A DNA stretch of 64,000 nt, taken from NCBI GenBank assembly GCA_019241085.1, contig JAFAXH010000124.1, forward strand, positions 1 through 64,000, given 5' to 3'. This document shows positions 2 through 40,624 of this stretch, piece after piece. The notes under the pieces were generated by a model, which was not told the origin of the DNA, searched no databases, and saw only the letters and a program-made list of their open reading frames with translations. A program made the translations under genes and the position numbers. The DNA is from Verrucomicrobiota bacterium. GTDB lineage: Bacteria > Verrucomicrobiota > Verrucomicrobiia > Chthoniobacterales > SZAS-18. Every line of letters starts with the position of its first letter. Positions within the stretch are counted from its first letter, which is position 1.

Positions 2-1042
2 TACGAAGCCTCGACCGAGCGCATTTCCAGCGGCATCCCGCGACTCGATACCATGCTAGAGGGCGGCTACTTCCGCGGGGCAACGGTGTTGATCGCCGGC
101 GCACCGGGCACCGCCAAATCCACGCTCAGCGGAGCGTTCGCCGAAGCCGCCTGCCTGCGCGGGGAGCGCACGCTTTACGTCGGCTTCGATGAGAACGCCG
201 CCGAGATCGTGCGGAACCTCGGCTCGGTGAACATCAAACTGGCGCCGCACGTCGAGAGCGGCCTGCTCCGCATCGTTTCCACTCGCACCGAAGCGATCAG
301 CGCCAAGGAACACCTGGTGCGATTGAAGGCGCTCATCGCGGAGCATGAACCCCGCTGCCTGGTGATCGACCCGCTCTCCGCGCTCATGAAGGCTGGCGGA
401 ATGTTGGCCGCCAGCGGGGTCGTCGAGCGCCTGATCCATGTGACCAAGACGCGCGGCATCACCGCGGTCTTTACCAGTCTTCTCGACAACGCCGAGCCGG
501 CCTTGGAATCGACCCTGGTCCAGGTTTCCACGGTGGCCGACACTTGGATTCAACTCTCCTACTCGGTTCACGCCGGCGAGCGCAACCGCGCGCTAACCAT
601 CATCAAGTCCCGGGGCACGCGGCATTCCAACCAAGTCCGGGAACTGGTGCTCAGCAGCGACGGCATTACTTTGGCGGATGTTTACTCATCCGGCGGCCAG
701 GTGCTGATGGGAACATTGCGTTGGGAAAAGGAGCAAGCCGACGCCACGGAGCAGGCGCGGAGGAAGGCCGAAGCCGATCAAAGGTTCCGAGCGATCGCGC
801 GCCAGCGAGCCGACTTAAAAAACCGGATCGAAGCGCTCGAACACGAGCTCGCGACCCAGGAATTGGAATTGGAAACGCTGCGAGGCGAAGAAAGCGTGCG
901 AGAGCGTTCATTTCTGACGCTGCACTCGGAGTTGCTCCGCTTCCGCCGGGCAGATCCAGATGGCTCCGGCCCGCCAGACGAGGTGTCAAACGATGCGCCC
1001 AACGGGCAGTTCGTCGCACCTTTGGAAAGCGAGGCGAAGTGA
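2..1042 (+). CDS. KaiC-like clock ATPase, C-terminal (CII-type) domain; 5' end cut by window
   Basis: RecA-fold ATPase/autokinase of the KaiC family. The frame is open from base 2, so the N-terminal part lies outside the window. Numbering from the internal ATG at 53: Walker A GAPGTAKS at 16-23, an acidic FDEN (45-48) where cyanobacterial KaiC has its catalytic Glu pair, Walker B LVIDPLS at 103-109, and VSTVADT at 158-164, which aligns with the KaiC dual phosphorylation site Ser431-Thr432 (here Ser159-Thr160). KaiC families bind and hydrolyse ATP as hexamers and exchange phosphate with regulators. Residues about 225-285 form a charged coiled coil not found at this place in cyanobacterial KaiC. 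The kaiB-like gene follows 3 bases after the stop, so the two are surely co-transcribed. The family call is secure; a circadian role is not shown. Confidence 0.9.
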   Translation, partial: YEASTERISSGIPRLDTMLEGGYFRGATVLIAGAPGTAKSTLSGAFAEAACLRGERTLYVGFDENAAEIVRNLGSVNIKLAPHVESGLLRIVSTRTEAISAKEHLVRLKALIAEHEPRCLVIDPLSALMKAGGMLAASGVVERLIHVTKTRGITAVFTSLLDNAEPALESTLVQVSTVADTWIQLSYSVHAGERNRALTIIKSRGTRHSNQVRELVLSSDGITLADVYSSGGQVLMGTLRWEKEQADATEQARRKAEADQRFRAIARQRADLKNRIEALEHELATQELELETLRGEESVRERSFLTLHSELLRFRRADPDGSGPPDEVSNDAPNGQFVAPLESEAK

Positions 1043-1045
1043 ACC

Positions 1046-1330
1046 ATGTCGCCACTCATCCTGCGACTCTACATCGCCGGCAGTTCACCGAACTCCGTGC
1101 AAGCTCTCGCCAATCTGCGCGGCATCTGCCGTTCGCTCCTGCGCGAGGAGCCTCAAATCGAAATCGTCGATGTCCTCGATGCGCCGCAACGCGCCTTGGG
1201 TGATGGGGTCTGGATTTCTCCAACCCTGATCAGAATCCATCCGCTCCCGGTGCGGAGGATCATCGGCAACCTCAGCGACCAGCAGGCGATGGTTGACGCC
1301 TTGAATCTATCAATCCGAAATAACTCATGA
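1046..1330 (+). CDS. kaiB: KaiB-like protein (first copy)
   Basis: 94-residue KaiB-family protein of the thioredoxin-like fold; in cyanobacteria KaiB binds KaiC CI rings and also controls SasA/CikA kinases. Diagnostic segments are LYIAGSSPNSVQAL (8-21), IVDVLDAP (40-47), SPT with the expected cis-proline region (58-60) and VRRIIGNLS (69-77). It keeps the short stand-alone KaiB length rather than being the N-terminal domain of a SasA kinase. It lies 3 bases after the kaiC-like gene, and its TGA overlaps the ATG of the following kinase (ATGA), which implies translational coupling. It is close to the second KaiB at 3397: I count 46 identities over the first 86 positions without gaps. It could act in phosphate signalling or stress response rather than timekeeping. 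Confidence 0.9.
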   Translation: MSPLILRLYIAGSSPNSVQALANLRGICRSLLREEPQIEIVDVLDAPQRALGDGVWISPTLIRIHPLPVRRIIGNLSDQQAMVDALNLSIRNNS

Positions 1331-3378
1331 ATGCTTCTATTCTTTGTGACCAAAGCGAGGAGTTCGTCTTCGGCGTCGTCGAGCGTTTTCGACAGGTCGA
1401 GGAGCAGTTGGAGAACGCGATCGGCGGGCAGATCGATGCGGTGCTCGGCGTGAACGGCCAGCCCTATCTGCTTCGCACGGCGCAGGGGCGGCTGCTGGAG
1501 AGCGTGGCTGCCGAACGACGCGCGTCGCAACTGCACTCTTCCATTATCAATGCGCTACCTGCGCCAGTCGCGCTGCTGAATGCTGCCGGAGTCATCGTGG
1601 CGGTCAACCAAGCCTGGACGCAACGGGCGGCGCATTCGCGGCTGGGACCGGGTTGCGAAGTAGGTCGCAGGTATGTCGAAGTTTGCGGTCTGGACTTGCA
1701 TGCCACTCTCAGCGAGGTGGAGCGGGCGCAGCTGGGGATTAATCAAGTTTTGATCGGCAAGATCGATCAATACACGCAGGAATACTCCTGCTCGTCCGAG
1801 TGCGGCACGGAGTGGTTTAAGCTCGTGGTTTCACCGCTGCAAAGCGGGATCACGGAAGGCGCGGTGGTCATGCATGTCGATGTGACGGATCAAAAGACGG
1901 CCGAATTGGAATCCCGCACGCACGCCGCTTTTCCCAGCTATAATTCGCACCCCGTGCTCGCCTTCTCCAAAGGCGGCCGACTGGTCTATCGCAATCGCGC
2001 GGCGACCCATCTGCTCGAAGAGTTCGGCGGTGAGATTCTTCCGGCGGACCTGCATGCGTCCCTGGCGGAATGCCTCACGAGCGGCTGCGGAAAATTGCTC
2101 GAAACGAAGCTCGGGACCCGGACACTTTCGTGGAGTTTCCAGCCCATCCCCGACGAGGAAATCGTCCATTGCGCCGCCACGGACGTCACGGAGTTGCTGA
2201 GCTTGGAAGCGCAGCTGCGGCAATCGCAGAAGATGGAAACAGTCGGGCAACTCGCCGGCGGAATTGCCCATAATTTCAACAACCTCCTGACCGTCGTGAT
2301 AGCGCACGCCTCGCGGTTGTCCGCCCAGTCAAGCGCACCGGAAATCGTGCTGAACTCAGCCGCGCGGATCACCGAGGTCGCCAAACGTGCGGCCGATCTC
2401 GTCCGACAACTCCTTGCCTTCGGCCGCCGGCAGGTCATGGAGCTGAAGAGTCTCGATCTCAAAATTGTGCTGGAGAGCACCGCGACGATTCTGCGCCAGG
2501 TATTGAATGCGGACATCGCGGTGCGCGTGGAATGGCCGCCGAACCTGCCGTGCGTGCGCGCCGATCACATGATGCTCGAGCAGGTGCTGCTCAACCTCGC
2601 GGTCAACGCGCGTGACGCGATGCCGGAAGGCGGCGAGCTGGTGATTCGGGCAGATGCCGTGGAGGTTTCCACGCTCGAAGCGCGTCAGCAGCAGGGCGGT
2701 TCGGCGGGAGAATTCGTCCGGCTCACCGTCCGGGACACTGGCTGCGGCATGACCCCGGACGTGCTCGCCAAAGTGTTCGAGCCTTTTTTTACGACAAAGG
2801 ACGTGGACAAAGGCACGGGGCTGGGACTCGCGACGGTTTACGGCATCATGCAACAGCATGGCGGCTGGATCGAGGTGCGCAGCGAACTCGGTCGAGGCAC
2901 GACCTTCCAGATTTACCTGCATCGTGCGCCGGCACCGCCGGTGCTTGTCGCGGAAGCTGAGAATCCCAGCAGCCAACCCATCGCCGTTGTGCCGGCGGAC
3001 GCGAGGATCCTGCTCGTCGATGACGAGCCGCTCCTGCGCGGCGTTGTCATTCAAATCCTTGAAGGGGCGGGCTACGAGGTGGTCGCCGCCGGCTCGGGGC
3101 CAGAGGCGATCCAATGCTGGCTCGCCCGTGGCGGAGACATCAACTTACTACTTGCCGACATGCAAATGCCGGGAGGCATGTCGGGTCGCGTTCTGGCGGC
3201 GGAACTACGCCGCTGGAAGCCCGAGTTGCCGGTGATTCTCACCAGTGGCTACACGGGAGAGATGGTGGGCTGCGCTGCGTCGCTCGGGTCAAAAGACGCC
3301 TTTCTGCAAAAGCCGTATCCGATGGAGAAGCTCCTCGACATGATCCGGTGCGCCATGCAGCGCGTGGATGGCCGCTGA
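1327..3378 (+). CDS. Hybrid sensor histidine kinase (PAS-HisKA-HATPase-REC)
   Basis: 683-residue cytoplasmic hybrid kinase; no membrane segment is visible. Order: N-terminal helix with GGQIDAVL (33-40), a motif shared with the next kinase; PAS domain about 66-190; a second, shorter PAS-like region about 205-290; HisKA with phospho-accepting His315 in GGIAHNFNN; HATPase with N box NLAVNARDAM (423-432), G1 RDTGCGM (469-475), F box FEPFFTTK (484-491) and G2 GTGLGLAT (496-503); receiver about 558-680 with Asp611 in LLADMQMPGG. The Asp common after the H-box His is Asn here (HNFNN), which is tolerated in related kinases. Its start codon overlaps the kaiB stop, so the KaiB protein is its likely partner. 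Downstream phosphotransfer to the NarL-type regulator at 7647 is inferred. Confidence 0.93.
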   Translation: MNASILCDQSEEFVFGVVERFRQVEEQLENAIGGQIDAVLGVNGQPYLLRTAQGRLLESVAAERRASQLHSSIINALPAPVALLNAAGVIVAVNQAWTQRAAHSRLGPGCEVGRRYVEVCGLDLHATLSEVERAQLGINQVLIGKIDQYTQEYSCSSECGTEWFKLVVSPLQSGITEGAVVMHVDVTDQKTAELESRTHAAFPSYNSHPVLAFSKGGRLVYRNRAATHLLEEFGGEILPADLHASLAECLTSGCGKLLETKLGTRTLSWSFQPIPDEEIVHCAATDVTELLSLEAQLRQSQKMETVGQLAGGIAHNFNNLLTVVIAHASRLSAQSSAPEIVLNSAARITEVAKRAADLVRQLLAFGRRQVMELKSLDLKIVLESTATILRQVLNADIAVRVEWPPNLPCVRADHMMLEQVLLNLAVNARDAMPEGGELVIRADAVEVSTLEARQQQGGSAGEFVRLTVRDTGCGMTPDVLAKVFEPFFTTKDVDKGTGLGLATVYGIMQQHGGWIEVRSELGRGTTFQIYLHRAPAPPVLVAEAENPSSQPIAVVPADARILLVDDEPLLRGVVIQILEGAGYEVVAAGSGPEAIQCWLARGGDINLLLADMQMPGGMSGRVLAAELRRWKPELPVILTSGYTGEMVGCAASLGSKDAFLQKPYPMEKLLDMIRCAMQRVDGR

Positions 3379-3396
3379 GCATTTCGGAGCAAAGAA

Positions 3397-3684
3397 ATGA
3401 CGACGTTTGTTTTCAGAATCTACATGGCGGCGAACTCACCTAATTCGGTCCGAGCGTTGACGAACCTGCGCGCGATTTGCCGCAACTATTTTAACGACCA
3501 ACCGCAAATCGAAATCGTCGATGTGCTGGAAGAGCCGCATCGCGCACTGGCGGATGGCGTGCTGATCACCCCGAGCGTCGTTCGGATTTCACCATCGCCA
3601 CCAAGGATGATCCTCGGCGATCTCAGCGACGTGAAGCGGACTTTGGTCATTCTCGACCCGCAACAAGAAGTTACACTACAATGA
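3397..3684 (+). CDS. kaiB: KaiB-like protein (second copy)
   Basis: 95-residue KaiB-family protein. It has YMAANSPNSVRAL (9-21), IVDVLEEP (40-47), the TPS/PPR region and ILGDLSD (72-78), so the KaiB core is intact. A GGAG about 8 bases upstream of the ATG is one of the few ribosome-binding sequences in this part of the window. Like the first KaiB gene, its TGA overlaps the ATG of a hybrid kinase (ATGA), so KaiB plus kinase occurs twice in tandem as a unit. The C-terminal strand diverges from the first copy (ILDPQQEVTLQ), in the part that changes fold in cyanobacterial KaiB. Family certain, partner and role inferred from order. Confidence 0.9.
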   Translation: MTTFVFRIYMAANSPNSVRALTNLRAICRNYFNDQPQIEIVDVLEEPHRALADGVLITPSVVRISPSPPRMILGDLSDVKRTLVILDPQQEVTLQ

Positions 3685-6600
3685 TCACGAACGGAAAACA
3701 GAACGGTGAGATCGCGCACTGGGTGCAGCGACTGACTGGCGCCGAAGCCGCGCTGCATGAGCTCACCGACGGACAAATCGACTCCGTCGTCACGGCCGAG
3801 GGCGACACCTTCCTATTGCGCCAGGCGCAGGAGGCGTTGCAAAAAAGTGAAGCTCGCTTTCGCGCGCTCATCGAGAACAGTTGGGATGCTGTCTCGCTCT
3901 GGTCCGGCGATGGAATTTTTCAATACAGCAGCCCGGCGGTGACACGGATGCTCGGCTATAGCCCAGCGGATCTCGCCGGCTGCAATTGCTTTGGATTCGT
4001 GCACCCGGATGACCGCGAGCTTTTTCAGGTGCGCTTCACCGAGTCGCTGGAGAAGCCCGGGGTCGGTATCGGGAGTTATCAGCGCGTGCGCCATGCCGAC
4101 GGATCCTGGCGATTGGTTGAGTGCATGATCACCAATCTGCTCGATGACTCGAACGTCGGTGCGATCGTCAACAACTTCCGCGACGCGACAGAACGGGAAC
4201 ACGCTCGCCAGGAACTCGAGCGCATCTTCGATCTGTCGCTGGATATGATCTGCACGGCCGGGTTCGACGGATATTTCAAGCAGATCAATCCCGCGTTCGA
4301 GCGCATCCTCGGCTACACGCACGAAGAACTCACCGCCGAGTCGTTTCTCAGCTTCGTCCATCCTGACGATCGCGACGCGACGATTGCTGCCGCGGAACAG
4401 TTGGCCGTTGGCCGGGACGTGTTGCTGTTTGACAATCGTTATCGGTGCAAGGACGGCAGCTATCGCTGGCTGCAATGGTCGTCCAAGTCGTTGCCCGATG
4501 AGCAACTGATCTATGCCGTCACCCGCGACATCACGGAGCGGAAGCAGGCCGCAGCCGCGCTGGAAAACTTGCGGCGCCAAAACGACTTGATCTTGCAGTC
4601 GGTCGGCGAAGGTGTGTGGGGCATCGACGTTGCTGGACGAATCTCGTTCGAAAACCCGATCGCCGCGAAGATGCTCGGCTGGGACGCTCACGAACTCATC
4701 GGTCGCGACGCGCACGAGACGATGCATCACTCGCGCGGCGATGGCTGCTGTTACCCGCGCGAGGAATGTGCGGTCCACGCGACGCTGCACGACGGCGTGG
4801 TGCGCCGCATCAACAACGAGGTGTTCTGGCGAAAGGATGGGACCTGCTTTCCGGTCGAGTATGTGAGCACGCCGATGCGGGATGAAGGCGGGGCGATCGT
4901 CGGCGCCGTCGTGACGTTTCGAGATGTCACCGAGCAACTCGCCGCGGAGAGAGAAGTGCGCTCGGCCAAAGCGCGCTTGCAACACTTTCTCTCCTCCAGC
5001 CCGGCAGTCCTCTACGCCGTGAAGCTTCAATCCACCGAGCCGAGGTTTCTCCAAACCTGGATCAGCGACAATGTCGCAGCGATCATGGGGTATAGCGCCG
5101 AGGAGGCTCTCGCCGATCCGATGTGGTGGTTGGATCACATCCATCCCGACGACCACAATCGAGTGCTCGCGGAATACTACGCCGCCGCGGAGAAGCAGGA
5201 TCTCTTCACGTTGGAATACCGCTTCAGGCGCAAGGACGGCACCTATTTCTGGATGCGGGATGAAATTCGCCTGCTGCGCGATGACAGCGGCGCGCCGTGC
5301 GAGTTCGTCGGAGCTTGTTCTGATCTGACCGAACAGAAAAAAGCCGAAGCGGCGCAACGCGCGCAGGAGGAACATTACCGCCTGCTCTTCGAGAAAAGCC
5401 CCAGCCCGATGTCGCTCTTCGATCGCAACAGCCTTCAGTTCCTCGATGTCAACGAAGCCGCGATCCGGCACCTCGGCTATTCGCGGGAGGAATTCCTTCA
5501 CAGCACGATCCAGGATATTTGTCTGCCTGAGGAAATTCCCTTGCTACTCGCAAGCGTGGCGCTTGTGACGCCGGAAGCCCCTCGTGTCGGTCTTCGCCGA
5601 CTTCGCAAAAAGGATGGCGGCATCGTGTTGATGGACCTTTGCAGCATCGCGATCACCTTGAATGGCAAGGCGGGATTGCTCGCCATCGGCACCGATGTCA
5701 CCGAGCGCGAGCAGGCGCAGGAGCGGTTGCGCCAGAGCGAGGCCGCGCTCGCGTTGGCGCAGCATGTGGCGAGAGTCGGAAGCTGGGAAATCGACTTGGC
5801 AAATGCCGAGGATGGAGCCAGCACTCCGCTTAGCTGGTCTGATGAGACCTATCGAATTTTTGGTTACGAGCGGGGCGAGATCGAGGTGACCACGGACACC
5901 TTCTATCAAAGGGTTCACCCTGCCGACCGCGCAAGCGTGGCCAACGCATTTGCCGCGATGGCGCGCACTGGGATGCGTTACAGCATCGATTATCGGATCG
6001 TGCTCCCCAACGGCGCTGAACGCATCGTGCACGCAGAGGCGACTATGATCGTTGACGACGAGTCAGGCCGGGCGCTGAAAGTTGTCGGCACCTCGCAAGA
6101 CATCACCGAACGCAAGCTCGCCGAAGAAGTGCTGCGCGAGCAAGCCGAGTTGTTGGAAATGGCGCACGACGCCATCATGGTGCGCGGCCTCGATACTTGT
6201 ATCCGGCTTTGGAACCGCGGCGCGGAATCCATCTACGGCTGGACCGCCGCCGAAGCGATTGGGAGAAACGCGGCGGAGTTGCTTTACATCGAGACGGACC
6301 TGCATCACGAGGCGATGCGTGGCGTATTGAAAAACGGCAATTGGAGTGGCGAGCTGCGCCAGGTCACGAAAGCCGGAATGCCGGTGGTGGTAAACAGCCG
6401 GTGGACGCTGATGCGCGACGCCGCCGGTGAACCCAAGTCCGTTCTCGTGATCAACTCCGACATCACCGAGCACAAGAAATTGCAAACGCAGTTCCTGCGC
6501 GCCCAGCGGCTGGAGAGCATCGGCACGCTGGCGAGCGGTGTGGCGCACGATCTCAACAACATCCTCGCGCCGATCCTGATGGCGGCGCCCATCCTGCGCA

Positions 6601-7634
6601 ACGAACTGTCGGCGAAATCACGCGAAGCCATCCTCAACACGATAGAAACCTGCGCCGAGCGCGGCGCCGACATCGTCCGGCAGGTGCTCACGTTCGCGCG
6701 TGGTGTGGAAGGCGAACGGCTGCTCGTTGACTCGACTCATCTCCTCAAGGAAATGGGCAAGATCGCCCAGGAGACCTTTCCCAAATCCATCGACGTTCGC
6801 GTCAGCTATCCAAAAACATCCTGGCTGATCGAGGGCGATCCCACGCAGCTGCACCAGGTAATCCTCAACCTTTGCGTCAACGCACGCGATGCCATGCCCG
6901 ACGGCGGCGAGTTGTTGCTTTCCGTGGAGAACCTGGGCATCGACGAGCAGTTCGCCGCCATGATGCCGGGGGCCAAGCCGGGGCCGCACATAGTCATCCA
7001 GGTGCGCGACACCGGGACCGGCATTCCGCGAGGAGTCGTTGACCAGATTTTCGATCCATTCTTTACCACGAAGGAAATGGGGAAGGGCACGGGTCTCGGC
7101 CTTTCCACGGCAATGGGCATCGTGAAAAGCCACGGCGGCTTCATCAACGTTTACAGCGAGGTGGGAAGAGGCACGACCTTCAAGGTCTTTCTGCCCGCGT
7201 CTCCCAGCGCGCAGGCGAGCGCGGCCAAGGAGCAGGAAGAGACACCGCCCCATGGCAACGGTGAGTTGCTGTTGATCATCGATGACGAGCGAAGCATCCG
7301 TGAGGTCGTCCAAACGATTTTGGAGAGGCACGGCTACCGCGTCATGGTGGCGGCTGATGGTCCCGAGGCACTCGCCATTTTCGCGCTGCGCATGGGCGAA
7401 ATCCGAGCGGTCCTCACGGATCTGATGCTGCCGATCATGGATGGCATTTCGGTGATTCGTGCGCTGCGAAAAATGCAACCCACCATTCGGATCGTTGCCT
7501 CCACGGGCCGAGCCGACGAGAAGCGCCTGCACGAACTCAACGCACTCGATGTGCCGGTGTGCCTCACGAAGCCTTACAACCAGAAAAAATTGCTCTTCAC
7601 CCTGCGAGACGTCCTCGGTCGCCCGAACCAATAG
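3681..7634 (+). CDS. Multi-PAS hybrid sensor histidine kinase (7 PAS-HisKA-HATPase-REC)
   Basis: 1317-residue soluble hybrid kinase. The N-terminus carries DGQIDSVV (30-37), matching the GGQIDAVL motif of the kinase at 1327. I count seven PAS units beginning near residues 58, 178, 298, 430, 563, 688 and 820; several end in the PAC-type D(I/V)TE motif. PAS3 contains a CCYPREEC cluster (356-363), which could bind metal or respond to redox. HisKA has His956 in SGVAHDLNN; HATPase shows NLCVNARDAM (1063-1072), RDTGTGI (1109-1115), FDPFFTTK (1124-1131) and GTGLGLST (1136-1143). The receiver (about 1195-1315) has Asp1247 in LTDLMLP. The number of PAS domains suggests integration of several cytoplasmic cues. 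The next gene is a NarL-type regulator 12 bases downstream, the probable output. Confidence 0.93.
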   Translation: MITNGKQNGEIAHWVQRLTGAEAALHELTDGQIDSVVTAEGDTFLLRQAQEALQKSEARFRALIENSWDAVSLWSGDGIFQYSSPAVTRMLGYSPADLAGCNCFGFVHPDDRELFQVRFTESLEKPGVGIGSYQRVRHADGSWRLVECMITNLLDDSNVGAIVNNFRDATEREHARQELERIFDLSLDMICTAGFDGYFKQINPAFERILGYTHEELTAESFLSFVHPDDRDATIAAAEQLAVGRDVLLFDNRYRCKDGSYRWLQWSSKSLPDEQLIYAVTRDITERKQAAAALENLRRQNDLILQSVGEGVWGIDVAGRISFENPIAAKMLGWDAHELIGRDAHETMHHSRGDGCCYPREECAVHATLHDGVVRRINNEVFWRKDGTCFPVEYVSTPMRDEGGAIVGAVVTFRDVTEQLAAEREVRSAKARLQHFLSSSPAVLYAVKLQSTEPRFLQTWISDNVAAIMGYSAEEALADPMWWLDHIHPDDHNRVLAEYYAAAEKQDLFTLEYRFRRKDGTYFWMRDEIRLLRDDSGAPCEFVGACSDLTEQKKAEAAQRAQEEHYRLLFEKSPSPMSLFDRNSLQFLDVNEAAIRHLGYSREEFLHSTIQDICLPEEIPLLLASVALVTPEAPRVGLRRLRKKDGGIVLMDLCSIAITLNGKAGLLAIGTDVTEREQAQERLRQSEAALALAQHVARVGSWEIDLANAEDGASTPLSWSDETYRIFGYERGEIEVTTDTFYQRVHPADRASVANAFAAMARTGMRYSIDYRIVLPNGAERIVHAEATMIVDDESGRALKVVGTSQDITERKLAEEVLREQAELLEMAHDAIMVRGLDTCIRLWNRGAESIYGWTAAEAIGRNAAELLYIETDLHHEAMRGVLKNGNWSGELRQVTKAGMPVVVNSRWTLMRDAAGEPKSVLVINSDITEHKKLQTQFLRAQRLESIGTLASGVAHDLNNILAPILMAAPILRNELSAKSREAILNTIETCAERGADIVRQVLTFARGVEGERLLVDSTHLLKEMGKIAQETFPKSIDVRVSYPKTSWLIEGDPTQLHQVILNLCVNARDAMPDGGELLLSVENLGIDEQFAAMMPGAKPGPHIVIQVRDTGTGIPRGVVDQIFDPFFTTKEMGKGTGLGLSTAMGIVKSHGGFINVYSEVGRGTTFKVFLPASPSAQASAAKEQEETPPHGNGELLLIIDDERSIREVVQTILERHGYRVMVAADGPEALAIFALRMGEIRAVLTDLMLPIMDGISVIRALRKMQPTIRIVASTGRADEKRLHELNALDVPVCLTKPYNQKKLLFTLRDVLGRPNQ

Positions 7635-7646
7635 TCGATCAACACC

Positions 7647-8306
7647 ATGCGTATCCTCATTGCTGATGACCACGAAGTAGTGCGCGAGGGCGCGCGTATG
7701 CTGATCGAGCGCGAGCCTGGCTGGGAGGTTTGCGGCGTGGCGGAAAACGGGCGGGATGCCGTTACTCTGGCCGCAAAGCTACAGCCCGACGTCGTGGTTC
7801 TGGATCTTAGCATGCCCGAACTCAACGGCCTTGACGCCGCGCTTCAGATCAAACGTCAGCTTGCGCAGACCGAAGTGCTCATTTTCACCGGGCAAGAAAC
7901 CGATGAGCTTGTCCGTAAAGTCTTCGAAGCTGGCGCGAAAAGCTTTATCCTCAAGTCAGAGGCCAGCCGCCATCTCGTCGAGGCGATTCGGTCGCTCTGT
8001 CAGCACAAACCTTTCTTCACAACTACGGTCTCGGCGGTGTTGTTCGCCCGCTTCCTGGAACGCTGCCACGGCGGTAGCAGCCAGTCGGACTCGGATGAGC
8101 AAACGGCCGACCGGCTTAGTCCGCGTGAACGCGAAATCGTGCAGTTGTTAGCTGAAGGCAGGAGCAACAAGGACGTCGCCAACATGCTCGGTATCAGCCT
8201 CCGCACGGCAGAGACTCATCGTGCGACAATTCTGCGAAAGCTGCGCCTCGACTCGTTCGCCGGCCTGGTGCGTTACGCGATCCGCAACAAGATTATCGAG
8301 GCATAG
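7647..8306 (+). CDS. NarL/FixJ-type response regulator
   Basis: 219-residue two-domain regulator. Receiver domain 1-120 has the acidic pair Asp7-Asp8, phospho-accepting Asp53 in VLDLSMPE, the Thr/Ser switch position in IFTGQ and the conserved Lys in FILKSEA. A linker of about 30 residues leads to a LuxR-type helix-turn-helix (about 150-212) with the typical LSPREREIVQLLAEG and DVANMLGISLRTAETH segments. Lys or Arg residues after the turn fit DNA contact. It is the last gene of the Kai/kinase run and the only DNA-binding protein in it, so it is the likely transcriptional output of one or both kinases. The targets are unknown; the secreted-protein locus starting at 8693 is the nearest candidate. 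Confidence 0.93.
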   Translation: MRILIADDHEVVREGARMLIEREPGWEVCGVAENGRDAVTLAAKLQPDVVVLDLSMPELNGLDAALQIKRQLAQTEVLIFTGQETDELVRKVFEAGAKSFILKSEASRHLVEAIRSLCQHKPFFTTTVSAVLFARFLERCHGGSSQSDSDEQTADRLSPREREIVQLLAEGRSNKDVANMLGISLRTAETHRATILRKLRLDSFAGLVRYAIRNKIIEA

Positions 8307-8692
8307 GCGGTGCCTCGGATGAGGCCGTAGTTGGAAATGCGCCGTGATCGGCGCCTACACAAGCAGGCACCGCGTTTTCAGAGGTGCATTCACTTGCACT
8401 CAAAGTCGCGGATCAGCTCGCCTGATCCCTCGGGTTCATCGCCTTCCACCAGAGCGAAATCACTCGCGAAGTTTCCTCGGAGTGGGGCCTTCTCACAACG
8501 GAATATCCGAGGCTCGCTAAGTAGAAGCCGCGACCGCAATTGCGCAGTTTTCAACGTCGGCACGGGCATGCACCGCGCTCCATGCAGCATTCGTAATTAT
8601 TGCGCGATCCCTGCCGAACATAATCGACCAAGCGGCGCGTGGTAGTGACACGAACTAAACCAAAAAATAGTAACTCAGAAGAATACAAACTC
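8307..8692. other. Gene-free gap with two short hairpins after the Kai/kinase operon
   Basis: 386 bases without a credible gene. Right after the stop are two perfect short stems: GCCTC/GAGGC (8312-8325, loop GGAT) and GCGCC/GGCGC (8339-8354, 6-base loop). Neither is followed by a T run, so a Rho-independent terminator is only possible. The rest should hold the promoter of the 8693 operon, but I found no strong -35/-10 pair. A 66-codon minus-strand frame (8390-8590) has no recognisable features. Confidence 0.4.
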
Positions 8693-9184
8693 ATGAAAAA
8701 CCAACTCCGCACGAGCGCAATGCTCGCACTCCTTGCCGCCGCAGGTCTCGCCCTACCGGCGTTCGCTGACAATACCGCGACGCAGCAGGTGAGCTTTGAG
8801 GTCCAGGCGATCAGCCAGCTGTCCTTCACTGGCAGCCCCTCCCTGGTCATCAGCACCGCAACCGCCGGCAGCGCTCCGGCCTCGGCAACGGCGAATGCCA
8901 CCTACGCGATCACCACGAACGAGACGAGCCGGAAGATCACCGCGTCACTCGATTCCGACATGCCCGCGGGTGTGACCCTCAGCACAAACCTGGCGGCGCC
9001 GAGTGGTGCGACCAGCGCAGGTGCTACCAGCCTTAGCGCTACCGCGCGTGACGTCGTTAGTGGGATCAGCACAGTAAGCCAGAGTGGCCTGAACGTCACC
9101 TACTCTCTCTCCGCCACGGCCGCCGCCGGCGTGGTCCCCGCGGGTTCACGCACGGTGACCTACACCATCACCGCCGGCTCCTAA
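8693..9184 (+). CDS. Small secreted beta-rich protein, possible pilin-like surface subunit
   Basis: 163 residues. I chose the ATG at 8693 because it begins a clear signal peptide (Lys-rich start, hydrophobic LALLAAAGLALPAFA, cleavage after Ala25); the upstream in-frame GTG at 8639 would add 18 hydrophilic residues before it. The mature part is rich in Ala, Thr and Ser and in short strand patterns, with no Cys, and ends in a strand-like VTYTITAGS. Length and composition suit a single beta-sandwich domain such as fimbrial or spore-coat-like subunits. I do not recognise the family. It heads a run with another secreted protein, a PapD-like chaperone candidate and a large barrel protein, so export to the cell surface is the likely fate. 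Confidence 0.7.
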   Translation: MKNQLRTSAMLALLAAAGLALPAFADNTATQQVSFEVQAISQLSFTGSPSLVISTATAGSAPASATANATYAITTNETSRKITASLDSDMPAGVTLSTNLAAPSGATSAGATSLSATARDVVSGISTVSQSGLNVTYSLSATAAAGVVPAGSRTVTYTITAGS

Positions 9185-9274
9185 CCTCAACCACACAATT
9201 TCGTGGGCTGGGAGGGCGGCAGAAGACATTTTGCCGCTCCTCCCTCTCACGGGTATCCGGAGAATTCCCGCGCG

Positions 9275-9868
9275 ATGAATCAAGCAACCTGCCTCTGCAT
9301 TGCCATCTGGGCGCTGCTGTTCCTGGTCGTTGTGGTGCATGCAGTAGCCGAAATCATGGTGAGCCAAAGTTGGCTACTAACAACCAATGCAGCCAACCTC
9401 GTCAGTGGTGCTGGCAGCGATCTCGAGCGCCAATTCGAAAGCGCGGCCGGCAACACCACGCTCAGCGTCACGAACATCCCGTCCAGCGGCACTTGGCGTG
9501 TCTTCGCGCGCCGAGCCGATGGCGTATGGAACGGCAACTTCGCGTTCTACGTGCGACGCACGTCCAGCGGGAGCGGTTCCGGCACAATCGCCGGTGGCGA
9601 TTCTTACGTGGAGGTGACCAATACCGACACTGAGTTCTTCAGCGGCACGGCCGACCGCAACACCATCGCAATCCAGTCCAAGCTGTCCGGGGTCTCCAAG
9701 AACCTCGCGCCCAATACCTACACTACGGCGGTCATTTTCACTGTCGTGCCCGACTCACTCTCTCTTTCAACAGCCCATGAAAGCATTGCTAAAATCCCTG
9801 CTGCTGGTGCTCAGCCTCAGCGCACTTTCACCGAGCATCTCATTCGCCAGCGTCCACGTCGTCGGTAA
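9275..9868 (+). CDS. Second small secreted beta-rich protein of the surface locus
   Basis: 197 residues. The ATG at 9275 starts a hydrophobic leader (about residues 6-24, ending near VHAVAE). An in-frame start at 9203 would put 24 polar residues before it and is less likely. The mature part has strand-rich segments (TTLSVTNIPSSGTWRVFAR, DSYVEVTNTDTEFF) and, like the protein before it, ends in a TYTTAVIFTVV strand at about residue 163. The reading frame then runs on through a basic tail that overlaps the first 92 bases of the next gene, an unusually long overlap. Either the tail is real, or a frameshift has removed a stop near 9760. No named family recognised. Confidence 0.6.
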   Translation: MNQATCLCIAIWALLFLVVVVHAVAEIMVSQSWLLTTNAANLVSGAGSDLERQFESAAGNTTLSVTNIPSSGTWRVFARRADGVWNGNFAFYVRRTSSGSGSGTIAGGDSYVEVTNTDTEFFSGTADRNTIAIQSKLSGVSKNLAPNTYTTAVIFTVVPDSLSLSTAHESIAKIPAAGAQPQRTFTEHLIRQRPRRR

Positions 9869-10592
9869 TCTCGCCCGCAGCAAAACTGCCAAGCCTGGTG
9901 AGACCTTTGACGGCGTCATTCTCCTGAAAAACACGGGCGCCAAATCGGCCGACGTGCACATCCGGCAGACAGACTACCAATGCTACGCGGATGGTCGAAC
10001 TCTGTATGGAGATCCCGGCACTTCGGCACGCTCAAACGCAAAATGGATCTCGGTCACACCCAGCCATGTCACCGTGCCAGGTAATGAGATGGTGTCCGTG
10101 AACTACAAGGTCAGAGTGCCCAGCGACGCCAAGCTCGTCGGCACTTACTGGAGCTTGATCATGGTCGAGCCGGCCGCCGCGCCTGCGCCCGAAGTCAAGG
10201 GCGGCAAGGACGAAATTGCCGTTGGCGTGCAGACCGTGACCCGCTTCGGCGTGCAGATCATCACCGAGATCGGCACCACCGGCAATTGCGCGTTGAAGGT
10301 CGCCGACAAGGCCCTAGTGAACGACAACGGTAAACGCGCTCTCAAGCTCGACTTCGAGAATACCGGCGAGCGCGACATGGTCCCCAACGTGTCCATCGAA
10401 CTCTACGGTCAGAACGGACTTTCGATTGGCAAGTTCGATGCCGGACGCGGGCGGATTTTCCCCGGTGGTTCAGTTCGTTACCACGCCGACCTTTCAGCTA
10501 TTCCAATTGGCAAATACGTCGCCATGGTGATCGCTGACACTGGCGACGATCACGTGATGGGGGCTCAATATGAGCTTGAAATCACTAATTGA
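9777..10592 (+). CDS. Periplasmic chaperone-like protein (PapD/CARDB-type Ig folds)
   Basis: 271 residues with a signal peptide (MKALLKSLLLVLSLSALSPSISFA, given here as positions 1-24). The mature protein opens with a strand/turn pattern of an Ig-like domain (PGETFDGVILLKNTG), has a central VSVNYKVRVPSD strand, and a second beta domain with LKLDFENTGERDM and a C-terminal YVAMVIADTGDDH. Two tandem Ig-like domains after a leader, between small secreted proteins and a large outer-membrane barrel, fit a pilus-type chaperone, although the classical PapD Arg/Lys pair cannot be assigned with confidence. It overlaps the upstream gene by 92 bases and the downstream barrel gene by 23 bases, which implies tight co-translation. 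Function is inferred from architecture and context. Confidence 0.65.
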   Translation: MKALLKSLLLVLSLSALSPSISFASVHVVGNLARSKTAKPGETFDGVILLKNTGAKSADVHIRQTDYQCYADGRTLYGDPGTSARSNAKWISVTPSHVTVPGNEMVSVNYKVRVPSDAKLVGTYWSLIMVEPAAAPAPEVKGGKDEIAVGVQTVTRFGVQIITEIGTTGNCALKVADKALVNDNGKRALKLDFENTGERDMVPNVSIELYGQNGLSIGKFDAGRGRIFPGGSVRYHADLSAIPIGKYVAMVIADTGDDHVMGAQYELEITN

Positions 10593-13383
10593 TCGTCGAT
10601 GTCTGCTGCTCGGTGCTTTCCTCGTTCAACTGCTACTACAACTGTATATCCCAGACCTCGCGACTGCGAAGAGCGACGGCGTCGAGATTCGAGCAGCGGC
10701 GGCCAAGCTCACCGAAACGGAGCCGGGAAAAATAATCACGGCGAGCTTCGTAGTCGCCAACCATACCAGCCAGGATGAAGAGTTGACCGAACAGTTGACC
10801 CTGCCAACGGGCTGGCAAAAACTCGCGCCGCCCGATCTGCCGTTCACCGTGCAAGCGGGGTCGCAATCGGTGCGAATCGTCGCGGTCGCAATCCCTGCGT
10901 TAGCACCCTCTGGTCGCTTTGATGTCAAGTATGCGGTTTATGGGCAGCCTGATCGAAGCTTAGGCGATACTGTCAGTTTTTCGGCCGTCGTCCTGCCGGT
11001 GTCGAAACTTGAACTTACGGTGGAGGAGACGCCGGACATGGTGATTGCCGGCGAGCCATACATCGTCCGGCTGCGGCTGGTAAACCATGGCAACGCGAAG
11101 CTCAGCATTCATACCGCTACGAAAAGCACACCGAACTTTCCGGTGAAGACGGATGGCACCGAACTGGCGCTGGAGCCCGGCGGCTCGCGTGACATCACTC
11201 TCAAGGTCGCGACGGATGGAGGTCTCGCCGAAAAAGTTGCCCACGTGCTCAGTATAGAGTCTGCGGCGGCAGCCAGCGGTGGCCAAGCCGTTTCAGCCAA
11301 GCAGACCGTCGTCACGAACATCATTCCCAGAATCTCCGGCAATCAGGATCCATACGTCCGCGCTCCGATCACGTATCGACATTATTTTACCCAGCAGACC
11401 GGCCGGAAGGGCACGATGCAGGCCGAGTTGTCAGGTGGGGGCGCGCTCAACGAAGAAGGCACGCGCAGCTTCGAGTTCCTCTTCCGCGGCCCAGATGCGC
11501 AGCAGACGAGTAACAGCTTTGAGCTGCGCGACGAATATCGGGTCAGCTACTTCGGCGAAGATTTCGATATTCACCTCGGCGACCGCACTTACACGCTATC
11601 ACCGTTGACAGAACGCTACGGCTATGGGCGCGGCGCAGAAATGGATTATCATTCCGACGCATTCGGAGCGGGCGCCTACTACATGCAGAGCCGGTGGCGT
11701 GCGTCGAACCCCCGCGAAATCGGCTCCTATGTAAAGTATGACTTCGGCAGATCATTCGAGCTAAAACTAAATTTCCTACGTAAGTGGGATGCGGAAACTC
11801 TGCGTCCGTTCGAGGCGATCTCGCAAAACCTGTGGACTTTGGAGTCACACTATAAACCGGGTAAGTGGCTCGATCTCGCCTTGGAGGGCGGCTTTAGCCA
11901 GAGCGACCATGGCAACGGCTTGAATCCGGCTTGGCGTATCGAGGCACGCGGCGAGTTACCTCACCAAGTTTATTACTCACTCGAAGCGACGCACGCTGCA
12001 CCGAGTTTCTTCGGGGCGGTCCATGATTCGGACGCAACGCGTGCGACGCTAACCTTTCCAATTTTCCAAAAGCTGAGCGGAAACTTGGCCTACGACGACT
12101 ACACCACTATCGCCGCCTTGAATCCGATCGAGAGCACGGTGCTTCCACATGAGAACTCCTGGCGCGGTGGCCTGCGCTACAGGTTTTCGACGATAACGGA
12201 CGCTTCAGCCGAATACCGGTATATCCACCGCGAGGACGTGCTGCTGCCCGCCGCTTTTGATTTCACCGAAAACTCGGTGAGACTCGGGCTGAGGCACAAT
12301 TTCGGGAAGTTCGCACTGCAAAATTTTCTCGATATCGGCGAAATCCGCGACATGCTCCGTGGCAACGAGGATCGCTTTTTCGAGCGCTACAGCGTTTTCT
12401 TGAACTATCGAACTAGTGCAAACTATACCTACTCGCTCTTTGGCAGCTATGGCCCGAGCCCTTACATCGGGGAAACTGGCAACAACTGGAGCTTTGGAGC
12501 TACTGGTAGCTGGAAGGTTCGCGAAAGCATGGGGGTTAATGTGCAGTATTCACGCAATGGTTATGACTCCCTCAGCGGCCGAACTCAAGACAGCCTCCAA
12601 GCCTCGCTGAACTATACTTTCGCTAATCGTCAGAGTTTTTCGATGGCGACACGGTGGTCGCACACGAACGGGCAAAAGGAACCCGAGGCGGCAGTGCTCG
12701 TCAGCTACACGGTGCCGCTCTCCTTGCCGGTAGGTCGAAAGACCAGCACCGGAGCAATCAAAGGCCAGGTCTTTGAGCCGAGCGGGCTCGCTGCGATGCC
12801 AATCCCGCGCGCGGTGGTTTTCGCCAACGACACGGCGGCGGTCTCGGACGAAAACGGCGATTTTGTTTTCCCCTCATTGAAACCGGGGATTTATACGTTG
12901 CGGCTTGACCAACGCTCCATTGGCACGGAGCGGATCGCTCTCCAGGAGTTTCCTCAAACGATTGAAGTGAAACGCGACTCAGCCGGCCGGCTCAGCATCG
13001 GCGTGGTGAATGCCTGCGCGATTTCCGTCAGGGTAGTCATCTTCGCTCCGCCAGCCGCGAACCGCCTCTCGGACATTCACCCGAGCGAACCTCAGCCGCC
13101 CATGAAGGAAGTGGGTGGGCTTGCTGCGGCCGTGGTGGAGATTAGTAACGGTCGCCAAATCATCCGCCAGGAAACTGACAGCGACGGGAACGCCGCTTTC
13201 AACCATCTTCAACCGGGCAAGTGGGCGCTGAAAGTCCGTGCGGACGAGCTCCCGCCAAATACTGTGCTGGAGCAACCCGAGACCCAGCTTATGCTTGAGC
13301 CTGCACAAACCCAGAGCGTGACCGTTCGGCTGTTATCGCGCCGCCGCACGGTAACTTTCATCGACGAGGGCACGATTCGGTAG
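10570..13383 (+). CDS. Large outer-membrane barrel protein, usher-like, with Ig and regulatory-like domains
   Basis: 937 residues. Residues 1-34 form a leader with a hydrophobic core. About 35-250 are two CARDB/NEW3-like Ig domains. About 265-710 is a long series of amphipathic strands alternating with Tyr/Arg/Asp turns (for example YFGEDFDIHLGDRTYTLSP and RSFELKLNFLRKW), as in outer-membrane beta barrels. About 725-810 is a carboxypeptidase-regulatory-like/SdrD-B fold (GQVFEPSGLAAMPIPRAVV, DENGDFVFPSLKPGIY), and about 835-930 is a second such domain (DSDGNAAFNHLQPGKW). Barrel, plug-like Ig domains and C-terminal beta domains recall fimbrial ushers, yet the size and order differ from the PapC family. 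With a chaperone candidate and two secreted proteins just upstream, an export pore for surface subunits is the best guess. It starts 23 bases inside the previous gene. Confidence 0.65.
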   Translation: MSLKSLIDRRCLLLGAFLVQLLLQLYIPDLATAKSDGVEIRAAAAKLTETEPGKIITASFVVANHTSQDEELTEQLTLPTGWQKLAPPDLPFTVQAGSQSVRIVAVAIPALAPSGRFDVKYAVYGQPDRSLGDTVSFSAVVLPVSKLELTVEETPDMVIAGEPYIVRLRLVNHGNAKLSIHTATKSTPNFPVKTDGTELALEPGGSRDITLKVATDGGLAEKVAHVLSIESAAAASGGQAVSAKQTVVTNIIPRISGNQDPYVRAPITYRHYFTQQTGRKGTMQAELSGGGALNEEGTRSFEFLFRGPDAQQTSNSFELRDEYRVSYFGEDFDIHLGDRTYTLSPLTERYGYGRGAEMDYHSDAFGAGAYYMQSRWRASNPREIGSYVKYDFGRSFELKLNFLRKWDAETLRPFEAISQNLWTLESHYKPGKWLDLALEGGFSQSDHGNGLNPAWRIEARGELPHQVYYSLEATHAAPSFFGAVHDSDATRATLTFPIFQKLSGNLAYDDYTTIAALNPIESTVLPHENSWRGGLRYRFSTITDASAEYRYIHREDVLLPAAFDFTENSVRLGLRHNFGKFALQNFLDIGEIRDMLRGNEDRFFERYSVFLNYRTSANYTYSLFGSYGPSPYIGETGNNWSFGATGSWKVRESMGVNVQYSRNGYDSLSGRTQDSLQASLNYTFANRQSFSMATRWSHTNGQKEPEAAVLVSYTVPLSLPVGRKTSTGAIKGQVFEPSGLAAMPIPRAVVFANDTAAVSDENGDFVFPSLKPGIYTLRLDQRSIGTERIALQEFPQTIEVKRDSAGRLSIGVVNACAISVRVVIFAPPAANRLSDIHPSEPQPPMKEVGGLAAAVVEISNGRQIIRQETDSDGNAAFNHLQPGKWALKVRADELPPNTVLEQPETQLMLEPAQTQSVTVRLLSRRRTVTFIDEGTIR

Positions 13384-37329: not shown

Positions 37330-37451
37330 TTACACTTTGCGATGCCCGCGATCCAAATGGAATTCTCGTGGATTTCAACAAGCGCACCGCGCTCGTCCTA
37401 GACTTCCTGCCAATAGCGCAGCGAAATTTCGCTCGTCAACGTTCGCTGCAT
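37330..37451 (-). pseudogene. Decayed small gene coupled to the SIR2-STAND stop
   Basis: The ATG at 37451 overlaps the SIR2-STAND stop (TAATG). It reads MQRTLTSEISLRYWQEV, then TAG, then DERGALVEIHEN in the same frame; one base shift later a second frame continues FHLDRGHRKV and stops. Put together this is one short reading frame of about 40 residues broken by a nonsense codon and a frameshift. Its position before the 37055 gene suggests the two were once a pair. Confidence 0.5.
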
Positions 37452-40400
37452 TATTCCCCTTCTTGGTCGTGAGATTGCAGCGGTTTCCAGTTCTGGGTCT
37501 GAAAGTAGGCGCCGACTTCCTTTTTGATATACGGAGAGAGGCGGGAAATGCTTAGCACCGCTTGCCGCTTGGCCACCTTCAAGCGGTCTTCAGGTGCTGT
37601 TTCGAGAGGAACAGCTTTCCAAGCCTCGTCCAGCACTCTTTCAATTCCTGCCTGAACTCGACCGTCCAAGGTGTTTGGAAGTTGGAGCGGCTTCTTGTCA
37701 TCTACCGGCGTCGGTTGACGAGGCACGGTCGATGGAGGACGTTTGACGCGCTGCTTGGAAACTTGAGGTGCACCGAAGAACGCGCGGAGGTTGTTGAAGG
37801 AAACCTGTTCGGGGTTCACCAATGCCTTCAAAAATGGGTCTTGGAGTTGGCGGCGTGCCTGAGCGACTGCGGCGGTAAGCCAAGCGATAGCTTCGCTCAC
37901 ATCGTGCGGGTGTGGAGTGTTGAGTTTGTCGGCTTCGCGGTGGCTGTTGTTAAGGTTTTGGGCATTTCTTTGATCGTTGCCGCCGCGAAATAGACCTAGA
38001 TAGGCGACGGCACGGCGAGCTTTGGCAAATGGACAATCGCGGCTGGACTGGGCTCCCTTCCCGAAAGAAAAGCCGAGACCCGCGCATATCTTCTTCACGT
38101 TTTCGATCGTAACTGGCGCGGGGTTAAGATGGTCGGACAGGGAGAGGCCGCCCACCCAAGCACCGGCGAATGCGTTTTCAATGGCACCCAGCTTGCCTTC
38201 GCAAATGCTCCATTCAAACCAGTAGCCGCGGATATCGGATTCGAAGTCCACCTTATCATGAGCCTTATCCAAGTTGTCCCTGAAGGTCGTTACCGCTTCC
38301 TCGAGCATTTCGGCGTTGCGGTAGGTTCTGCCGAGGTCGGTGAGGGCGCATAATCGATCCGGTTCAACTTCAACATCGGCTTTTGCCGCGGCAATCGCGA
38401 TGGCCTTGCGGCGGTCTTCGGGGATTTGTTGCGGCAATGCTTTCTGCAGCCGAGGGCCGGCGTGAACAATGGGAGAGAACGTTTGGCCAACTCGAATGCC
38501 GGGCTCTTGGCTGGTTTGGACCGTCTGCCGGACGAGTTGTGCCCAGATTTCCGCGAGGTCCATTCCGAACGTCTCCTCTGCTTCGACGAGGATCGCGGCA
38601 GCCACCTGGCTATGGCGCGTGAGAGCGTGACCGGCGCTGTGAACCGCGGCAGCTTCCTCGCCCAAAGGCCGGACGACGTATCGCTGCACCCATTCACGCG
38701 GAACTCCAACCAAGTCAGCCAGCACGCGTTCGTCAATGCCGGGTATGCCTGTGCCGTGACACGCAGCCACATACAGCAGCGCATCGAGGAGGCTGCGGTT
38801 TCCGTGCTCGATGTGCATGTGTTCAAGTCGCTGGAGGAAGGTGCGAACGTGGGCCTGCAACCCATTCTGCCCAAAGCGCACGGCGAGGAGTCCGCCGAAA
38901 AACGAGCCTTCCTCCGGGCGGTGTCGTTTTAGTTGCTCATCCTGCCTGCCAACCGCATCCCTGACGGCGGACTCGAAGACCGCAGCTCGCTCGGCGGCGT
39001 CACCGATGGCAGCCAGTTCGCGAAGGCCATCGGGGCCTGCGCCTTCCCACGCGGTCAACACGGCTTTGGCATCTTCGGGGGTGATGCCACGCAGGAGGGT
39101 ATCGGGATATTTGTCGAGCCATTCAGACCACGGCTTTCGCGGTCCGTTAGCGGCTTTCCAGTCCGCATCCCGCGTCGCCAAAAGAAAATGAACGCCGTTG
39201 CGACCGGCTTGGCTGATGTGTTCGGCAATTGCGGTCAGACTGGAAACAATTCCGTCGGCGTCGTCAGCGACGATCAGCCAGCGGCGAGTTAAGTCGAGAG
39301 CCGCGATCTGCTCCGGCGAGATGCCTTCGTTCGGCGAAGTGCGCCAAAGGATAGACCACTCGCCTGCGCGTGAAACATCTGCCGCCACTTGAAGCAGCAA
39401 GGTGGACTTTCCCTCGCCACCCGCCGCCCGGATGAGGTGCATGGAGCGAGCAACGTTATCGTGCGCGATTTGCGCGAGCCGCGCAGTGAGTTTTTCGGCG
39501 CCCTGTCGTCTCGGGATGCCTTGGGATACCGCGTGCCGCCAAGTCGGCACCGCACCATCGAAATAGCGGATCAACTCGTCTGAATTCAGTGGCGACAGCG
39601 AATCGAGATAAGGCGGATCAATGAGCTGCCAGCCAGCGATAGGTGACGCGGAGACGGATATCACGGCGGCAGGCGCGGATGCTCCCTGTAAGGTTGAGAG
39701 GATCTCGCCAAAGATGCTGTGGCAATCTATGCCGCCAAAAGGACGAAACCTATTCAACCTGATGGCTGGTTCCATCGCGCGGAGCACTTTGCCGTAGCGT
39801 TTTTCAAAATCCTCGTCAGCGATGCTTTCGTAGAAGCACCAGATGACATCGAGCTTGGCCTGCTCGTCGCTGACGATCTCGACAAGCGCCTGAGTAAACA
39901 CGTCGTCCCACCCACCGTAGGCCGCGACAATCAAGGTCCGTTGTTGGGCGACAAGCAAACGCTGGAGCGAAAATTTCAGCTTGGTCCGGGGATTGGTCAG
40001 TTGTGCCTGAGTGTGAAGCGTATCGGAATCTCGCCAGAATCCATGAAGGTGAATCACGCTGCAGGTGCCGGGATCGTCTTCGGCGGCACCACCGAGCGAT
40101 CCATCAGCAGTGAGAACCCGACGGCCGGCGTGTCTGCCGGATTTACGAAGAGCCAGCGAGATGAGCGGATCGAAGTTTGTCGTGAGAATTGGCCCGATGA
40201 ACTTTTCTTCTCCGCGTGCAACTAGATCGGCCAGCCCGGTAGTTCCCGCCGGGATATTCCAATCGTCAGGCTGGCCGTCGGTGCCGTTTGGAACGGCTCC
40301 CGCGCCGACTTTGCGAGCTTGAAGCACGGCCTTCCTGATGACTTCATTCACTGCATCTTGCCCGGGATTCTGACCGAGCCACTTCATCGCCGCTTGGTAA

Positions 40401-40624
40401 GCGTCCGAGCCAACTTTTCCGCCTACTGCCGCGTCGTATTGTGGAAGAGCCAATGGGCGTAGGCTGCGGACTTCCCCGCGGGCAAAATCAAGCATCGTGG
40501 TTACGCCGGGAACACCGACTTCATCTTTTAGGGACAATGGCGACCCGACGAGGAACGCCACAGGCCGCCGCGTCATTAGCGCAGCATTGATAAGGACTGC
40601 TTTCGAGAGAAGTTCAATAGGCAT
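37451..40624 (-). CDS. SIR2-STAND NTPase with C-terminal helical repeats, probable anti-phage protein
   Basis: 1057 residues. SIR2-like NAD-binding domain about 1-310: TTNFDP (148-153) with Asn150, IHLHGF (191-196) with His194, and a conserved AAYGGWDDVF. STAND/NACHT-type ATPase about 380-600: Walker A AGGEGKST (401-408), Walker B WLIVADDAD (449-457) and sensor-like LLATRDADW. The rest (about 640-1057) is helical, partly TPR-like (ALTDLGRTYRNAEMLEEAV), the usual target-sensing part. SIR2-STAND proteins (Avs5-like and related) sense phage proteins, then deplete NAD+. It lies near tRNA-Lys, and its base composition looks less GC-rich than its neighbours', so transfer is likely. The trigger and exact family are not known. 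Confidence 0.85.
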   Translation of the reverse strand: MPIELLSKAVLINAALMTRRPVAFLVGSPLSLKDEVGVPGVTTMLDFARGEVRSLRPLALPQYDAAVGGKVGSDAYQAAMKWLGQNPGQDAVNEVIRKAVLQARKVGAGAVPNGTDGQPDDWNIPAGTTGLADLVARGEEKFIGPILTTNFDPLISLALRKSGRHAGRRVLTADGSLGGAAEDDPGTCSVIHLHGFWRDSDTLHTQAQLTNPRTKLKFSLQRLLVAQQRTLIVAAYGGWDDVFTQALVEIVSDEQAKLDVIWCFYESIADEDFEKRYGKVLRAMEPAIRLNRFRPFGGIDCHSIFGEILSTLQGASAPAAVISVSASPIAGWQLIDPPYLDSLSPLNSDELIRYFDGAVPTWRHAVSQGIPRRQGAEKLTARLAQIAHDNVARSMHLIRAAGGEGKSTLLLQVAADVSRAGEWSILWRTSPNEGISPEQIAALDLTRRWLIVADDADGIVSSLTAIAEHISQAGRNGVHFLLATRDADWKAANGPRKPWSEWLDKYPDTLLRGITPEDAKAVLTAWEGAGPDGLRELAAIGDAAERAAVFESAVRDAVGRQDEQLKRHRPEEGSFFGGLLAVRFGQNGLQAHVRTFLQRLEHMHIEHGNRSLLDALLYVAACHGTGIPGIDERVLADLVGVPREWVQRYVVRPLGEEAAAVHSAGHALTRHSQVAAAILVEAEETFGMDLAEIWAQLVRQTVQTSQEPGIRVGQTFSPIVHAGPRLQKALPQQIPEDRRKAIAIAAAKADVEVEPDRLCALTDLGRTYRNAEMLEEAVTTFRDNLDKAHDKVDFESDIRGYWFEWSICEGKLGAIENAFAGAWVGGLSLSDHLNPAPVTIENVKKICAGLGFSFGKGAQSSRDCPFAKARRAVAYLGLFRGGNDQRNAQNLNNSHREADKLNTPHPHDVSEAIAWLTAAVAQARRQLQDPFLKALVNPEQVSFNNLRAFFGAPQVSKQRVKRPPSTVPRQPTPVDDKKPLQLPNTLDGRVQAGIERVLDEAWKAVPLETAPEDRLKVAKRQAVLSISRLSPYIKKEVGAYFQTQNWKPLQSHDQEGE

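Follow-up and report, generated by a model that had tools for sequence, protein, structure and literature searches.

By which route could a Kai system outside cyanobacteria pass its state to the proteins that it controls? SasA homologues outside cyanobacteria have no KaiB-like domain, and the conclusion of a large survey of 2017 was that output there has to follow another pathway (PMC5520375). The question is raised by an operon at the start of the DNA analysed here, a stretch of 64 000 nt from a Verrucomicrobiota bacterium (assembly GCA_019241085.1, contig JAFAXH010000124.1; hereafter the window). We consider it probable that this operon encodes a KaiBC timer without KaiA, similar in type to that of Rhodobacter sphaeroides, in which two output kinases are coupled to KaiB and a single transcription regulator follows them. 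The operon type is known; the tandem doubling of the KaiB–kinase unit and an N-terminal module common to both kinases are what looks new.

Organization of the operon

ORFs and Pfam matches gave six operon genes, all on the + strand, in the order KaiC, KaiB1, HK1, KaiB2, HK2 and NarL, as proposed in a first-pass annotation of the window; the two ATGA overlaps between KaiB and kinase genes reported there are present as well. The features are as follows (coordinates are those of the window):

2..1042, + strand: KaiC, CII domain and C-terminal coil (PF06745, E 3.7e-36); CI and the start codon are missing at the contig edge
codons 527-532, + strand: Ser-Thr phosphosite of KaiC (VSTVAD), aligned with phosphosites of KaiC homologues
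1046..1330, + strand: KaiB1, 94 aa (PF07689, 70 bits, cut-off 27)
1327..1330, + strand: ATGA overlap of the KaiB1 stop and the HK1 start
1327..3378, + strand: HK1, hybrid kinase with KaiB-linked module, PAS_4, HisKA, HATPase_c and receiver (Pfam)
1363..1503, + strand: KaiB-linked N-terminal module of HK1, VERFRQVEEQLENAIGGQIDAVLGVNGQPYLLRTAQGRLL (profile E 1.2e-17)
3397..3684, + strand: KaiB2, 95 aa (PF07689, 66 bits, cut-off 27)
3681..3684, + strand: ATGA overlap of the KaiB2 stop and the HK2 start
3681..7634, + strand: HK2, hybrid kinase with KaiB-linked module, multiple PAS, HisKA, HATPase_c and receiver (Pfam)
3708..3851, + strand: KaiB-linked N-terminal module of HK2, VQRLTGAEAALHELTDGQIDSVVTAEGDTFLLRQAQEALQKSE (profile E 2.4e-21)
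7647..8306, + strand: NarL/LuxR-type response regulator (Response_reg and GerE)

There is no KaiA among the operon genes, so its absence holds at the level of the operon; KaiA has been reported from cyanobacteria only (PMC5520375). A search of the operon proteins for an HPt domain was negative, which leaves the phosphorelay of the first-pass annotation a conjecture. Scans for promoters and terminators yielded no signal beyond chance level. Assembly duplication was rejected as the source of the two KaiB genes, since KaiB1 shares only 58% identity with KaiB2 (78 residues compared).

The KaiC-type domain with its Ser-Thr pair had been recognized correctly in the first pass, with the correction that KaiC is a fragment. 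Window base 1 is also the first base of the contig (C167) and lies inside the KaiC gene, and no second strong KaiC match exists elsewhere in the source genome (assembly 87% complete, 170 contigs); for these two reasons we ascribe the absence of the CI half to assembly and not to biology. Full-length KaiC relatives have both CI and CII. The CII phosphosite of relatives is mostly Ser-Thr and in some cases Ser-Ser. A tail of 100–124 residues follows the HSNQVRE motif in 61 of 64 KaiCs of the clade. The best PDB match of the window KaiC was R. sphaeroides KaiC (8dba), coil included, the alignment running to query residue 315.

Comparison with known Kai systems

A KaiA-less module of such a build had been described in the first pass as one not recognized. 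The comparison does not support this: according to the 2011 Ramlibacter genome paper, non-cyanobacterial kaiC-kaiB clusters are followed by a gene for a histidine kinase or a GGDEF/EAL protein (PMC3164672), and R. sphaeroides KD131 has kaiC, kaiB and an HWE kinase. Both the lack of KaiA and the presence of a neighbouring kinase are thus known features.

The operon resembles that of Rhodobacter (Cereibacter) sphaeroides KD131 in its kaiC-kaiB-kinase order, in the C-terminal coil of KaiC, in the lack of KaiA in the operon and in the module-bearing kinase. R. sphaeroides KaiC works without KaiA as an hourglass driven by ATP/ADP (PMC10076222). The two systems differ in that R. sphaeroides has one KaiB and one HWE kinase, whereas the window has two KaiB–hybrid-kinase units and NarL; the phosphosite is Ser-Ser in R. 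sphaeroides KaiC and Ser-Thr here, and R. sphaeroides KaiB was predicted to be in the ground state (PMC10808063), while KaiB1 is predicted to be fold-switched. The operon class is also that of the clusters in the Ramlibacter paper, but the common N-terminal module was not found described in the accessible part of its text; the RtaNt domain, which is compared there with SasA and KaiB, belongs to a kaiB-less group (PMC3164672).

The likeness to the cyanobacterial SasA/CikA–RpaA pathway lies in Kai-coupled histidine kinases (through an N-terminal region or KaiB) followed by a DNA-binding regulator. In SasA, however, a KaiB-like thioredoxin domain is fused to the kinase; in the window KaiB is separate and the kinase carries a different, short module. 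The SasA-type domain is absent from HK1 and HK2 as judged by Pfam and by the HK1 N-terminus, which is predicted to be a helix-hairpin-helix followed by PAS. A split SasA was rejected as an explanation, there being no KaiB-like part in either kinase. The operon kinases had no Pfam match to a CikA-type GAF, and the receivers of HK1 and HK2 retain the acceptor Asp and are therefore not pseudo-receivers of the CikA type.

A common N-terminal module

Both kinases start with an unannotated helix-hairpin-helix module of ∼50 residues. Its pattern comprises a helix, the core G-[EQ]-[VI]-D-[AST], a short hairpin often ending in YLLR-AQ and a second helix. In the AlphaFold2 model of HK1 (mean pLDDT 87) residues 3–32 form a helix, 38–40 and 46–48 strands and 50–75 a helix, after which the PAS domain begins. 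Three flavours were profiled, a, b and c (the last in Crp-type regulators).

Pfam gave nothing above cut-off over the kinase N-terminus (first ∼65 residues), none of the best 25 NCBIfam matches covers the first ∼50 kinase residues, no convincing homologue of the module was found in the PDB and a fold search with the HK1 N-terminus returned matches to PAS domains only. The module appears to be undescribed in the literature and databases searched.

The outputs headed by the module differ widely (hybrid kinases, GGDEF/EAL enzymes and Crp-type regulators), and its core is also carried by Crp-type proteins without PAS. The HWE kinase of the kaiBC operon of R. sphaeroides KD131 (L194; WP_012643402.1) has an N-terminal module of type b (E 5e-15). 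In eight loci of Proteobacteria and Spirochaetes (L037, L045, L047, L053, L059, L065, L082 and L097) KaiC and KaiB are followed by a module-headed Crp-type DNA-binding protein, the Kai system there apparently being wired straight to a transcription factor.

Association of the module with KaiB

A set of 80 related loci from at least eight phyla was collected with a KaiC alignment, that is, by KaiC and not by the module; a contig scan of genomes with KaiB2 alone as query gave no matches. The first-pass interpretation depended on the gene order being kept in relatives. The order KaiC-KaiB-output is retained, KaiB adjoining KaiC in 79 of the 80 loci.

Sequence beyond KaiB was available for 76 KaiB genes; in 71 of them the module comes next, and five KaiB genes with room for it have none. 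With the window included, the outputs are GGDEF proteins with or without EAL (34), histidine kinases (21, the window's two among them), Crp-type proteins (8), one EAL/kinase frame and nine unclassified proteins, mostly cut by contig ends. At 57 of 73 junctions between KaiB and the next gene we found an NTGA overlap in the −1 frame (ATGA in 45 of those 57); KaiB and module genes are, judging from these overlaps, translationally coupled in most loci. Loci with the order kaiB-kaiC, as in cyanobacteria (L169 and L187-L190), have KaiB without the module.

Since some of the loci counted had also contributed to the profiles, whole-genome samples make a more independent test of the KaiB link. The window's phylum was represented by 289 genomes, of which 14 have a type-b module, one copy each; all 14 genomes are KaiB-positive and 13 copies lie directly downstream of KaiB (Fisher p 1.3e-20 for type b versus KaiB), the copy of G094 being located away from the genome's KaiB. 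Type a was detected in this phylum in both window kinases, in G213, in G073, where the copy adjoins a divergent KaiB missed by Pfam, and in G333, where the copy has a degenerate core and no KaiB was found. All three strong matches in an alphaproteobacterial sample (240 genomes) are beside KaiB, and all nine matches with E<=1e-5 in a betaproteobacterium-centred sample (248 genomes) adjoin it.

In the 777 genomes combined, 29 of ∼31 module copies (E<=1e-5) lie directly behind KaiB, a count in which orphan copies may be under-represented, as the large scans scored 22 to 28 candidates per genome. The genome-level Fisher p of 1.3e-34 is indicative only, the genomes being related. When 20 of the genomes that harbour the loci were scanned as a whole, 23 module copies came up, 22 of them within kai operons; the exception (G355:C99) lacks the Gly of the core, and no KaiB neighbour was detected for it. 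A match on a Methylosinus plasmid was not accepted into the family, as its module E was 0.005 and KaiB was absent.

Related loci and the doubled unit

A tandem second KaiB–kinase unit was found in none of the 80 related loci, and the doubling does look particular to the source genome. A Chthoniobacterales assembly of the same phylum (L039) has the order KaiC, KaiB, HK2-like kinase and NarL. Identity to the window proteins is 61% for its KaiC, 44% for its kinase (against HK2, 1161 residues) and 54% for the regulator ending its operon (against NarL). This comparison suggests that KaiB1-HK1 was added later, in front of an older KaiB2-HK2-NarL, with HK2 and NarL appearing to be the older pair. We base the order of ages on the similarity of HK2 and NarL to L039 because the KaiB tree, weakly supported for so short a protein, left KaiB1 and KaiB2 unplaced.

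Several loci showed other arrangements. Two KaiB-module pairs stand back to back on opposite strands in L093, one with a type-b module kinase and one with a type-a GGDEF/EAL protein, and a single KaiB is followed by two module-bearing proteins in L109. Type-b operons (L025-L031, L172, L174, L176-L180, L182, L183 and L197) usually have two to three adjacent KaiB genes before the module gene, and these adjacent KaiBs fall into two separate groups of the tree. Directly upstream of the KaiC-KaiB-module operon, L081 and L106 have a second KaiC–kinase pair without KaiB. A Hymenobacter plasmid (L196) has a KaiB gene with neither KaiC nor kinase directly beside it. At L168 (G172:C123:46000-60000), in a genome without evident KaiC, the gene directly after KaiB encodes a hybrid kinase that begins with a receiver and has no module. 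The relatives L039 and L108 point to Verrucomicrobiota as the phylum of the source genome; L108 and L032, from a genome of the same family, are one contig.

Predicted fold state of KaiB

KaiB1 and KaiB2 score above the Pfam KaiB cut-off; neither reaches the equivalog cut-offs that NCBIfam sets for the clock protein. The AlphaFold2 model of KaiB1 (pLDDT 92.5) has the fold-switched, thioredoxin-like topology, a choice of state that in AlphaFold varies with the alignment supplied. Its best Foldseek matches are fold-switched KaiBs: that of Legionella pneumophila (PDB 4kun, the top match), 5jwr and the KaiC-bound KaiB of R. sphaeroides (8fwj). In the window's KaiB clade, position 89 is Ala in 63 sequences and position 91 is mostly Gly and rarely Asp, in what we take to be Thermosynechococcus elongatus numbering. 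The changes G89A/D91R shift T. elongatus KaiB to the fold-switched state (PMC8059507). Predicted fold and residues 89/91 together are suggestive of KaiB1 and its clade favouring that state.

Candidate partner of the module and proposed mechanism

From its distribution and sequence conservation we lean, if modestly, towards the module being an unnamed KaiB-reading domain, a portable plug connecting KaiA-less Kai timers to kinases, c-di-GMP enzymes and Crp-type factors in many phyla, R. sphaeroides included. KaiB would be the protein that docks on it. In the first-pass annotation each KaiB had been made the adaptor of its own kinase. The tight KaiB–output unit, with its NTGA overlaps, and the common N-terminal module agree with that proposal; docking itself is a deduction from sequence, and co-variation gave a null result: in a mutual-information test with 62 pairs, few sequences for such a test, the KaiB-module signal was no higher than that of the KaiB-PAS control.

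This null result, together with the predicted continuation of the helix-hairpin-helix into PAS, is what one would expect of a mere dimerisation or signal-transfer segment, kept by conservation of the operon, with KaiB–kinase coupling reflecting co-expression only. We consider that explanation unlikely, as one core heads unrelated outputs, among them the Crp-type proteins without PAS, and nearly all genomic copies stand beside KaiB. There is a similarly small chance that the module reads KaiC, the kinases docking on the KaiC ring and KaiB competing for the site, like SasA and KaiB in cyanobacteria. Cyanobacterial SasA does bind CI (PDB 6x61) and a KaiC gene is located just upstream in nearly all loci; those loci were found with a KaiC query. 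KaiB is favoured over KaiC as the partner because of two genomes: G192, complete in a single contig, keeps an intact KaiB and an adjoining module kinase with no KaiC anywhere (L166, G192:C1:211000-226000), and in G073 a distance of ∼0.7 Mb separates KaiC from the pair of KaiB and module genes. The opposite-strand module gene of L093, which has its own KaiB, also argues against KaiC. The KaiB-module kinase pair of L166 is preceded by a NarL-type regulator.

Even with KaiB docking on the module, the system need not be a timer. A constitutively fold-switched KaiB could form with KaiC an energy or stress sensor feeding the two kinases, a reading compatible with KaiB-module docking and one that we regard as quite possible, at somewhat under an even chance. 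It is in line with the predicted state of KaiB1, with Ala at position 89 and with Legionella KaiB as the top structural match; the Legionella kai operon has reportedly been proposed to serve energy or stress sensing. KaiC, on the other hand, retains the Ser-Thr site and has a coil like that of the R. sphaeroides hourglass, which is itself driven by ATP/ADP (PMC10076222).

Under the timer reading that we prefer, the C-terminal coil would let KaiC autophosphorylate without KaiA, by analogy with R. sphaeroides, and the state of KaiC would set the load of KaiB on the CI ring, as in known Kai systems. Thioredoxin-like KaiB would dock on the N-terminal module of the co-translated kinase, whose second module helix, continuous with the first PAS in the model, could relay the signal to the kinase. 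The kinases may then act on NarL, directly or via an unlinked HPt. Each KaiB–kinase unit, with a PAS set of its own, would then read out the timer in parallel with the other, and the two readouts may converge on NarL. The first-pass annotation had seen two input branches in them; as the module also heads DNA-binding and c-di-GMP proteins, two outputs are likelier, and HK1 and HK2 are probably parallel outputs.

If the proposal is true, the module would supply the output link that has been missing for Kai systems outside cyanobacteria; a sequence signature that accompanies KaiB in different phyla and ahead of different outputs makes a concrete candidate for it. It would also offer a way to spot Kai-controlled proteins in genomes. 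Since the kaiBC kinase of R. sphaeroides carries the module, the idea is testable in an established system with KaiB, KaiC and structures at hand.

Other genes in the window

Right after the operon (8639-13383) there are genes of secreted or surface proteins, including one of 937 aa with carboxypeptidase-regulatory-like repeats. The minus strand at 37451-40624 encodes a long protein with a SIR2-type-looking start and a P-loop region (by eye), possibly of a defence type. At 46943-50354 a Pup-ligase/Dop-like gene comes after an AAA+ gene resembling proteasome ATPases; judged by eye from the translations, this may be a pupylation locus.
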